NCBI GenBank assembly: GCA_027484985.1
Contig: JAIXRW010000017.1
Coordinates: forward strand, 1 to 64,000
Reading direction: 5' to 3'
Source of the DNA: Rhodobacter sp.
GTDB taxonomy: Bacteria; Pseudomonadota; Alphaproteobacteria; Rhodobacterales; Rhodobacteraceae
DNA: 64,000 nt
Positions within the stretch are counted from its first letter, which is position 1. Every line of letters begins with the position of its first letter. Below are positions 198 to 57,626 of this stretch, in pieces. A model generated the notes under the pieces. It saw only the letters and a program-made list of their open reading frames with translations. It ran no database searches and was not told the DNA's origin. A program made the translations under genes and the position numbers.

Positions 198-343
198 TTC
201 ACCTTTGCCCAAATACTCCGCAGGGGAAGGGGCCGCTTGCGGCCCCGTGGGGGGCGCGCAGCCCCCCTCAGCCTCGCGGCTCCGCCGCGAGGGCATGGCT
301 TGCGCGGGGCGCCCTGCCCCGCGCGCCGCGTGGTCACCCTGAA
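198..343 (-). repeat. 3'-end element R1 (hairpins plus GAGTATTT core)
   Basis: Downstream of the alaX-like stop, the minus strand carries four successive GC-rich hairpins (for example GGGGCCGC with GCGGCCCC). They are followed by the core GAGTATTT (complement of 211-218) and a tail resembling CAAAGGTGAA. The core and tail recur at R3, R9 and R12. The span fills the gap between alaX and the tRNA; no gene is seen in it. Confidence 0.6.
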
Positions 344-354
344 CCGGGGCAAGT

Positions 355-1074
355 CTAGCCGTCCAGTTCGATGGTCATCCGGCGGTTCTGGCGGCCTTTC
401 TTCTCGATCCGGCCCAGCCGCACATGGCCAATCTCGGCAGTGCGGGCCACATGGGTGCCGCCGCAGGGCTGCAAATCCACCTGATGCCCCGCCGTCCCGA
501 TCCGCACCAGCCGCACGCGACCCTGCCCCACGGGCGGCTTGACCGACATGGTCTTGACCAGACCGGGATTGGCGGCCAGTTCCTCGTCGGTGATCCACTG
601 GTCGCTGACCGTCAGGTCAAGCGCGATCAGCGCGTTCAGCTTTTCCTCGATCGCCGCCACATCCTCGGGCGGATCGGGCATGTCGAAATCCAGCCGCCCC
701 CGCCCGGCCCCGATCTGCCCCCCCGTCACCGGCAGGGGCACCACCACCGACAAAAGATGCAGCGCGGTATGCACCCGCATGTGTCGATGCCGCCGCTCCC
801 AGTCCAGCCGCTGCGTCACCGGCGCCCCCACCGGTGGCAGCGCCATCGGCTCGGCCATCACCAGTGCGACCTGCCCGCCTTCGGCCTTGACCGCCGTGGC
901 GATGGGCACCTGCCGCCCCTCCCAGGCGATCCAGCCGCTGTCACCGGGCTGTCCACCCCCGGTGGGGTAAAACAGCGTCCGGTCCAGCAGTATGCCCCCC
1001 TCGGCGGTATGGCCCGCCACCACGGCCCCGGCCTCGCGCAGATAGGCATCGGCGCGGAACAGCAATTCGGTCAT
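355..1074 (-). CDS. AlaX-type alanyl-tRNA editing protein
   Basis: Predicted cytoplasmic trans-editing enzyme that hydrolyses mischarged alanyl-tRNA species (Ser- or Gly-tRNAAla). The 239-residue protein matches the stand-alone editing domain of alanyl-tRNA synthetase. It begins with an AlaX-like N-terminal barrel (FYPTGGGQPGD near residue 36). It carries both zinc-binding signatures: HTALH (H102, H106) and CGGTH (C204, H208). The ATG at 1074 is preceded by GGAAGC and lies 10 nt after the stop of the channel gene upstream, so the two are probably cotranscribed. A longer reading frame upstream overlaps the channel gene and is Arg/Pro-rich noise. Family assignment is secure; which amino acid is edited cannot be told. 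Confidence 0.9.
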   Translation of the reverse strand: MTELLFRADAYLREAGAVVAGHTAEGGILLDRTLFYPTGGGQPGDSGWIAWEGRQVPIATAVKAEGGQVALVMAEPMALPPVGAPVTQRLDWERRHRHMRVHTALHLLSVVVPLPVTGGQIGAGRGRLDFDMPDPPEDVAAIEEKLNALIALDLTVSDQWITDEELAANPGLVKTMSVKPPVGQGRVRLVRIGTAGHQVDLQPCGGTHVARTAEIGHVRLGRIEKKGRQNRRMTIELDG

Positions 1075-1084
1075 GTCAGCTTCC

Positions 1085-57160: not shown

Positions 57161-57250
57161 GGCATCAGGCTTTCAAAGGATCAGTCACAGGCGATAGTCC
57201 ACAATGCCCGCAGGCTCAAGCCTTCAGGGAAAACGGTGACGAATGCGGCA

Positions 57251-57505
57251 CTATTTCTGCCTTGCAGCAAAGCCCGCCGCCGTCAGCCGAAGCGAGACAT
57301 GGCGACGATCTGTCCCCATCGGGCGGCAAAACAGCTGGTCCCGCCCCGTCTCGACAAAGCCGCGTTTTGCCAGCACCCGCGCCGACCGTGCCAGCCACCC
57401 CGCCACGGCCAGATCGTTCAATCCGGCCAGAACATGCGCCCTGTCGTGCAGGCAAACCGGCCGCAAGGCCAAGCGCGCCGTGAAAAGATGATGCGGCATT
57501 GCCAC
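57251..57505 (-). pseudogene. Internally deleted GNAT acetyltransferase remnant
   Basis: 84 codons in frame. The first part (LFTARLALRPVCLHDRAHVL, GLNDLAVAGWLA) is the start of a GNAT domain; the second (ARVLAKRGFVETGRDQLF, then LRLTAAGF) is its C-terminal end. The central about 90 residues with the acetyl-CoA loop are missing, so it cannot be an active enzyme. It probably was the first of two tandem GNAT genes between obgE and rpmA; the second is intact. GAAAGG lies before a GTG at 57505. Calling it a short real protein is less likely. Confidence 0.7.
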
Positions 57506-57554
57506 TTTGCAGACCTTTCACCAACACGGAACCTTCGGGCCAACAGGCGTGCTT

Positions 57555-57626
57555 TGCCCCTTCACCTTTGCCCAAATACTCTGCGGGGTAGTCCATCGTG
57601 TTCGCCATCGGTTCAAGAACCGATGG
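57555..57626 (-). repeat. 3'-end element R12 (hairpin plus GAGTATTT core)
   Basis: After the GNAT stop: 10-bp stem CCATCGGTTC and GAACCGATGG with an AA loop (57605-57626), then the core GAGTATTT (57581-57574) and tail GGGCAAAGGTGAAGGGGC. Hairpin sequence unrelated to the other copies; core and tail the same as R1. Confidence 0.65.

Follow-up and report, generated by a model that had tools for sequence, protein, structure and literature searches.

The 64,000-nt stretch analysed here (the window), contig C48 in a genome of 3.64 Mb (G000), raises the question of what a short conserved core, preceded by hairpins and found again and again behind genes, might do. The initial annotation had listed twelve cores and read them as a terminator or mRNA-end signal and not as a mobile repeat. 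All twelve were recovered where it had placed them, three on the plus strand (22271, 36030, 45374) and nine on the minus strand, and chance was ruled out by the genome-wide matches, against which reversed-pattern controls gave zero. As a whole, the observation was partly confirmed and its interpretation is partly supported. The window copies are as follows, with approximate outer limits throughout.

195–267, minus strand: element with tail type A, made up of hairpin I, hairpin II, a C-run, the GAG TATTT core and the tail GGGCAAAGGTGAA; the TATTT lies 140 nt past the stop of the gene at 355–1074 (minus).
4722–4750, minus strand: core and type A tail only, an outlier in a divergent gap, without the G-run/C-run module.
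8876–8935, minus strand: type A element, short form, with one hairpin and a second C-run; the site is also occupied in G002 (type A) and in G015 and G017 (other tails).
22243–22292, plus strand: type C element (GGCAGAAAATG) in short form; the two flanking plus-strand genes are 69 nt apart.
35995–36138, both strands: type B pair, tail-to-tail, with cores at 36032 (plus) and 36094 (minus), between convergent genes; the right arm reads GGGGAGGG / CCCTCCCC / CCCCTCCC.
40133–40203, minus strand: type C element with a 4-nt spacer, in the gap between the cox3 and SURF1 genes; arm GGGGGAGAGG, second C-run CCCCCTCACC.
45323–45485, both strands: tail-to-tail pair of long forms with two hairpins, type B (45376, plus) and type A (45430, minus).
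49482–49538, minus strand: type B element, short form; the tail at the orthologous sites in G015 and G017 is GCAAGAGGAAG.
54962–55012, minus strand: type C element with a 4-nt spacer; it lies between two minus-strand genes separated by 59 nt.
57557–57630, minus strand: type A element with a different hairpin family (AGTCCATCGGTT...) and CCCC ahead of the core.

The copies at 36030/36090 and 45374/45426 thus form inverted, tail-to-tail pairs. By our own gene calls, a sense stop codon lies upstream of 11 of the 12 copies, as had been noted, at a distance of 38–165 nt from stop to TATTT. The exception is copy 4743 in its divergent gap, which is also the copy without the G/C module. The two tails described initially do not extend to the copies at 22271, 40150 and 54979, which carry the third tail, GGCAGAAAATG, instead. 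A second hairpin family (CCATCGGTT...), whose 5′ arm is able to pair with either of two 3′ arms, occurs at 57557–57630 and at L025:723, L039:11357 and L021:13429, with the usual core and type A or C tails. Rfam covariance models scored above their gathering thresholds in the window only for tmRNA and tRNA, and the element had no match. The tmRNA gene, at 32716–33070 on the minus strand, scores as a permuted tmRNA too; no element was found among the 170 nt on its 3′ side.

The anatomy was derived from 301 elements retrieved by a regular expression (195 long and 106 short forms). The parts follow a fixed order: hairpin I, a linker or hairpin II, a second C-run, RR-TATTT, a spacer of 3–4 nt and a purine-rich tail. 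Hairpin I pairs G4–9 with C4–9 around recurrent loops (CTGTCTG in 98 copies, CCGTCTG in 28, CCAG in 26). The linker of short forms is mostly 3 nt, GGA or GCA, and that of long forms measures 12–32 nt in 185 of the 301 elements and is mostly hairpin II. GAG follows the second C-run in 198 of 301, a count inflated because about 120 copies were retrieved with a GAG-containing string. In hairpin II, stems reach 5 bp or more in 85% of copies (32% after shuffling), and its 158 arms include 109 distinct ones; its structure is conserved, its sequence is not. The earlier view that the hairpins of most copies are unrelated in sequence fits hairpin II and is too simple for hairpin I.

Within a sample of 864 kb, 78 of 102 G5-loop-C5 hairpins lie at most 100 nt from a core; of the 24 others, six or more are elements that our matrix had not caught. 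Every exact type C tail in the sample has its core (37/37), and no exact tail without core was present among the matches listed of 115 genome-wide places. The absence of any exact tail without a core from the sample led us to reject a guide RNA or sRNA that would pair with the type C tail. Seven of the 37 type C tails extend as GGCAGAAAATGAAC (L005:14105, L005:18299, L012:10306, L013:6473, L021:1636, L023:4185 and L025:11607). Pairing of the C-run with the tail was likewise rejected, with no excess for any of the three tail types. One copy, at L023:14656, could pair in this way, its second C-run CCCCTCACCC being the exact reverse complement of GGGTGAGGGG in its own tail; other copies do not follow this as a rule.

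The tracts of the G/C module are coupled in length. In 77% of elements, among the long forms (195) and the short forms (106) alike, hairpin run and second C-run have equal length; shuffled copies reach 44% and 41%, respectively. This coupling persists within subgroups: 78–95% when long forms are divided by flanking base or by loop, 81% with a GAG linker, and 77% and 88% in the two short forms; the runs are equal in 22 of 22 G000 long forms with the loop CTGTCTG. Two small sets of long forms gave no significant coupling (G002, 67% vs 46%, n=9, P = 0.17; G015, 44% vs 47%, n=9, P = 0.79). Uniform runs cannot separate a triplex from an alternative Watson–Crick pairing, and only G-arms that contain A decide between them. 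The letters of a parallel purine motif are matched completely by 39 of 54 such arms (shuffled mean 20.4, maximum 30) and incompletely by 15. The pyrimidine motif alone fits 2 of the 54. Antiparallel Watson–Crick pairing fits none, and on this count we rejected the alternative in which G-run and second C-run form a duplex. At the parallel position, the second C-run places 46 A, 14 T and 13 C opposite A, and C opposite G in 322 of 333 cases. A looser register test on 16 arms favoured the parallel register in 14 and the antiparallel in none, with two ties. Arms with A after position 1 fit in 21 of 28 cases (13 of 19 distinct arm pairs), again with no antiparallel fit.

The base before the G-run and the base before the C-run are associated with an odds ratio of 37, and since the coupling of A before both runs is partly a subfamily trait due to descent, the 54 A-containing arms are not independent. 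A strict-complement test of these bases gave 0.27 against 0.38 for shuffled copies, below shuffling because A mostly faces A and not T. In short forms the stem extends beyond the G-run, and the second C-run is preceded by a base that misfits. The duplex energy between G-run and second C-run shows a weak excess for type C only (shuffles as low per 100: 4 for C, 15 for A, 37 for B). Read on the opposite strand, the predicted triplets are G*G-C, T*A-T and A*A-T, which would constitute the antiparallel purine motif; the available sections of Holder et al. (2015, PMC4666352) list these same triplets for that motif. In our view the letter coupling is sequence evidence for a triplex geometry that is being maintained or once was.

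The element is abundant and largely confined to one family. With up to two mismatches, the pattern for types A and B, RKTATTTGNNCAARKGTGAAAGG, occurs at 132 places in the whole genome (67 forward, 65 reverse), and the type C pattern, GGATATTTNNNGGCAGAAAATG, at 91, of which 86 are exact; the reversed control was 0 for both. A second version of the type C tail has a 4-nt spacer. The strict core CCCCSNNGRRTATTT has 219 matches in G000 and at least one in 128 of the 149 genomes of an order sample, all Rhodobacteraceae, where controls gave 0–2 per genome and counts of 1–3 are not above control. Among 187 genomes of other families of the class, it reached at most three matches each, and the controls also reached three. 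A more general tail pattern was found in 47 of the 149 family genomes, with up to 82 copies and a control of 0. Matches from named genera fall in Rhodobacter, Cereibacter, Paracoccus and Ruegeria, and the sampled relatives of G000 and the named matches are nearly all Rhodobacteraceae. Two annotated Cereibacter records hold three elements, as judged by eye, all between convergent genes; two more loose-core matches there were not judged to be elements. A search of the open-licence PMC literature, including one by literal strings, returned no description of the element, an absence that is weak evidence.

To place the copies relative to genes, we used a codon-phase Markov caller, which gave 808 genes in the 864-kb sample. 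The sample holds 105 copies scoring at least 12 bits, five of them at edges and one within a called gene. The remaining 99 were classified: 72 have a sense gene upstream (40 of them in convergent gaps), 26 are antisense between codirectional genes and one lies in a divergent gap. From the share of intergenic base pairs, 31.9 copies would be expected in divergent gaps, where we found one, and 13.2 in convergent gaps, where we found 40. The association with gene 3′ ends is thus strong, as first proposed. Counting only gaps of 60 nt or more, an element is present at 53 of 112 convergent 3′ ends and at 42 of 218 codirectional ones. In the sample, 26 tail-to-tail pairs account for 52 of the 105 copies. 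U-tract terminators, by our own strict finder, were present at 24 of 330 tested 3′ ends, and they are not significantly rarer at element-bearing ends (5/95) than at others (19/235; P = 0.49).

One further divergent case, a type C pair with 4-nt spacers at L038:3540, was not caught by the matrix. Tandem units of about 48 bp, each comprising hairpin I and hairpin II, run into this tail-to-tail pair (L038:3349–3541), so the structural module can undergo amplification alone. Other G/C-rich tandem hairpin arrays, with the element absent, lie behind the TldD gene in G007 and G003 (L072, L074), in the gap orthologous to the one behind window 43894–45315. Five genes in the sample have elements on both sides (thymidine kinase, phosphodiesterase, peptidase M3, DNA ligase and HNH). 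They share no family, and a REPtron-like gene flanked by its elements was rejected as a candidate, in a comparison of low power. The small HNH endonuclease gene (L035:2368–2952) is one of these five, possibly by chance.

The wording of the tail is specific to the species. The type C tail reads GGCAGAAAATG in G000, GACAGAAAATG in its closest relative G002 (with a minority of GGCAG), GACGGAAAATG in G001 and GACAGAAAGTG in G007; seven of 19 genomes of the genus have no match to the type C-tail pattern, and some of these have other tails. Our comparison of orthologous gaps covered 19, each in up to four genomes. The gap at C9:52362 turned out to hold a chance match, which leaves 18 of the 19 as meaningful. 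Thirteen element sites are comparable between G000 and G002: nine are kept (one having lost an arm), one has decayed and three are absent, and no clean insertion boundary was seen by eye. A pair at C52:107948 in G015 is absent from G000. The tail type can switch while the site keeps its element, and in three pairs both arms have switched together. At C52:91349, G000 has C/C and G015 has AACAGATGAAG / AACAGATGAAA, with nearly the same left hairpins. At C9:98115, G000 has C/C and G002 has CCGAGAAGAA in both arms, with a different hairpin II. The window pair at 35977 is B/B in G000, and in G015 and G017 both arms carry GCAAGAGGAAG or close variants. An antisense copy, C9:41251, also follows the dialect of its species.

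The arms of a pair are matched by type. Type C is mixed with A or B in none of 26 pairs, against a shuffled mean of 11.3. The tails in 19 G000 pairs match by type (9.74 of 11 vs 5.85 shuffled), and their spacers do not (0.89 of 3 vs 1.19 shuffled). For 17 pairs from named genomes the spacer match was 1.65 vs 1.31 shuffled, with 23 of 500 shuffles as high, in a shuffle that mixes species. We rejected an RNA stem formed by the two tails, as the G000 spacers are unmatched though the tails match; a stem with an internal loop could still form.

Our preferred explanation, to which we give a probability of roughly 0.4, is that the copies constitute a family of interspersed 3′-end boundary elements that work at the DNA level and join a triplex-capable G/C module to a putative factor-binding box. 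The first part would combine a G(n)-loop-C(n) hairpin with a second C(n), in many copies with another hairpin, free in sequence, between them; its G-rich strand is predicted to adopt in the cell an intrastrand triplex of the purine motif (G*G-C, A*A-T, T*A-T). The second part, a candidate box of G-purine-purine-TATTT, a 3–4 nt spacer and a purine-rich tail of 10–13 nt, would be recognised as sequence by a trans-acting factor. The most likely role would be the separation of neighbouring transcription units: structure and bound factor may slow or halt polymerases at gene ends. The units would act singly, with a sense bias, or as tail-to-tail pairs, often between convergent genes. A drift in the specificity of the factor would then give each species its own tail wording. 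Anatomy, run-length and letter coupling, 3′-end location, shared sites, type-matched arms of pairs and dialects are established in the sequences, and this reading builds on them. The near-invariance of the tails beside varied spacers and hairpin II points to selection on tail and core, that is, to recognition by something, and argues against recent copying of whole units. Points against the boundary explanation include the several tail types found in each genome, which would call for more than one factor or for a loose one, the antisense orientation of about one third of single codirectional copies (in part among the matches listed), the misfits and shared descent among A-containing arms, and U-tract terminators that are not significantly rarer at element-bearing ends. 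We also keep our confidence at the value given because, in the available text of PMC4666352, the E. coli precedent shows no terminator activity. As a speculation, replication stalling at such structures could drive exchange between copies and help to explain tail switching.

A different explanation keeps the element at the level of RNA, as a sense-strand 3′-end signal. Its hairpins would shield the mRNA from 3′–5′ exonucleases, TATTT would be an RNase E-type cleavage site or a weak termination zone that sets the mRNA end, and an RNA-binding protein might sit on the tail. Folding of the 45 nt upstream is indeed strong (mean −22.7, vs −16.0 for shuffled letters and −13.6 kcal/mol at 670 element-free 3′ ends), copies such as 22273 and 54983 lie in gaps so short that a promoter would hardly fit, a spacer of 3 or 4 nt suits single-strand recognition, and the U|AUUU of the core is consistent with the preference of RNase E. 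Orientation is where this explanation is put to the test, and the check for a sense bias gave an outcome in between. Single copies in codirectional gaps of three data sets are sense in 61 and antisense in 34 cases (binomial P = 0.007; in part among the matches listed), so that 61 of 95, beside 11 of 12 window copies, speak for the RNA reading, and the sense rule seen in the window becomes genome-wide a mere bias. The sets are the G000 singles (17 sense, 11 antisense, P = 0.34), a collection with 38 sense and 23 antisense singles among the matches listed (123 exact cores at 117 loci, 13 copies at edges, again among the matches listed), and syntenic regions with 22 cores (6 sense, 0 antisense). 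With paired copies included, 82 are sense and 63 antisense (in part among the matches listed).

Antisense singles do not look degraded in motif score, with a mean of 39.9 bits vs 41.5 for sense singles (11 vs 17 copies, P = 0.37). By type, the antisense and sense means are 38.4 and 41.0 (A), 36.7 and 32.3 (B) and 43.3 and 48.1 (C), with few copies per type. Two antisense singles, C9:41251 and C52:54515, persist at orthologous sites; the tail of one has switched to the dialect of the other species, that of the second to a different type. That both orientations are conserved to a similar degree speaks against a role confined to the sense mRNA, and with sense no more than a bias and antisense copies scoring alike, a purely sense mRNA-end signal is too narrow. 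The A found mostly opposite A-T pairs (46 A, 14 T, 13 C) fits the purine motif, which is reported not to form in RNA (available sections of PMC4666352) and thus weighs against an RNA signal. So does the report, in the accessible part of PMC7866481, that a MEME search of the sequence upstream of PNPase-related 3′ ends in R. sphaeroides yielded no motif, in a set not chosen for these elements. We regard the RNA explanation as doubtful, with some chance of being right.

The surroundings of antisense copies deserve separate mention. In 15 of 23 antisense singles of the collection and syntenic sets (among the matches listed), TATTT and the stop codon are 19–31 nt apart, and in these 15 the tail nearly reaches the stop codon. 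The outer hairpin of the antisense copies L004:8493 and L039:6609 is preceded by AAAGAAAA, so that the neighbouring gene reads the hairpin and then TTTTCTTT, similar to a U-tract terminator. As a hidden terminator of antisense copies in general, an A-run before the outer hairpin was rejected, with few cases and no overall difference (9 vs 13 copies, P = 0.56).

The boundary explanation also has to be weighed against a non-autonomous mobile or gene-converting repeat of REP/BIME kind, without host function and tolerated only behind genes, whose dialects would be bursts or conversion. Such a repeat would account for the recurrence of hairpin modules with varying tails (CCGGGGAGGGTTTTCCA..., for one, is joined to B, C or GCAAGAGGAAG tails), inverted pairs, copies in both orientations, homogeneous tails within a genome and the shared bases past the tail in 7 of 37 type C copies. 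It sits poorly with the near-constancy of the tails (of 91 type C matches, 86 are exact) next to diverse spacers and hairpin II, and with the sites common to G000 and G002, where nine of 13 persist without a clean insertion boundary. A Y1/RAYT transposase above the cut-off was found in none of the 19 genomes of the genus, and the viral collection gave only three exact matches to one core string. The strong 3′-end association, the shared sites and the lack of a REP transposase above the cut-off in these genomes together suggest that the element is no recently mobile repeat, in agreement with the initial annotation, and we consider the mobile explanation unlikely. A species-recognition word resembling a DNA uptake sequence and co-opted at gene ends is highly improbable, for although dialects and inverted pairs at gene ends recall uptake sequences, the element has a few hundred copies (vs generally at least 1,000 for uptake signals in the available part of PMC1852404), lies within a called gene in only 1 of 105 sampled copies and has several tail types per genome.

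The element forms a large class of gene-end elements across a family, with no name in the open-licence PMC literature searched, and the letter-by-letter coupling of its three tracts is evolutionary evidence for a triplex geometry, of a kind not reported for the E. coli repeats in the available text of PMC4666352. An element that acts on polymerases would bear on how transcription units end in a high-GC bacterium with few U-tract terminators. The dialects suggest that a putative trans-acting factor could be found by pull-down. An improbable but far-reaching version of the boundary explanation is that Rhodobacteraceae punctuate the ends of transcription units at the DNA level, with a triplex-forming module and a box for one or more fast-evolving proteins, stopping polymerases from either side; box and protein would then co-evolve, giving each species its own dialect at conserved gene ends. 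This punctuation would amount to a boundary system that is specific in sequence, is assisted by structure and differs from the bacterial terminators known.

Compared with intrinsic (Rho-independent) terminators, the element shares a GC hairpin past the stop codon and a short T-rich stretch nearby. It differs in that no T-tract follows the hairpin directly: the T-stretch is only TATTT, set off from the hairpins by the second C-run and about 4–5 nt. In the 301 elements as selected, GAG, GG, GTGG or similar stands between this C-run and RR-TATTT. A long conserved sequence follows this stretch, and about one third of single codirectional copies are antisense (in part among the matches listed). DNA uptake sequences also have species dialects and, like the element, inverted pairs at gene ends; they differ from it in copy number (132 and 91 matches and 219 strict cores here, against about 1,000 or more), in its near absence from genes, in its several tails per genome and in its triplex module. 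Inverted pairs of uptake sequences often form terminators, according to the available part of PMC1852404.

For REP/RAYT systems, we searched the 19 genomes of the genus for the Y1 (TnpA_REP) transposase PF01797 and found none above the cut-off, with one weak sub-threshold match in G007; the control search was positive in 5 of 14 known genomes. REP elements are gene-end hairpin repeats with inverted pairs and several classes per genome, and the element resembles REP/BIME in each of these traits. Unlike REP/BIME with a RAYT, it has its conserved part 3′ of a partly free hairpin, and the genus shows no such transposase above the cut-off.

The closest likeness is to PIT, BoxC and TM_ECO, the intrastrand-triplex repeats of E. 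coli (Holder et al. 2015, PMC4666352; this and the following comparisons refer to its available sections). The element shares with them G/C-richness, three consecutive tracts on the same strand, intergenic location, both orientations, inverted pairs and no link found to mobile genes. The PIT/BoxC repeats are reported to have neither terminator nor promoter activity and to be without effect in vivo (PMC4666352). Three same-strand tracts with canonical triplets in the right strand direction, as in PIT, are found in the element as well (77% of 301 by length, 39 of 54 A-containing arms by letters, with 15 of 54 unfit). The element falls outside the ITxF limits (stems 6–15 nt, loops 1–6 nt; PMC4666352), within which some short forms could lie: its stems are often only 5–6 nt with many 5-nt runs, its commonest loop, CTGTCTG, has 7 nt, and the second loop of long forms takes up a whole hairpin, with 12–32 nt between the C-runs in 185 of 301. 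Compared by reading, tract order and sequences also differ from the BoxC/TM_ECO consensus, CCCTCNCCC N3-6 GGGNGAGGG N3 GGGNGAGGG (PMC4666352); the G-rich strand of the element runs Hoogsteen-R-Y (class I), whereas TM_ECO is class II. TM_ECO is found more often upstream of genes (PMC4666352), and the element lies behind them. Unlike PIT and BoxC, it has a conserved core and a dialect tail attached to the triplex-capable module, and this core is confined in the class sample to the Rhodobacteraceae.
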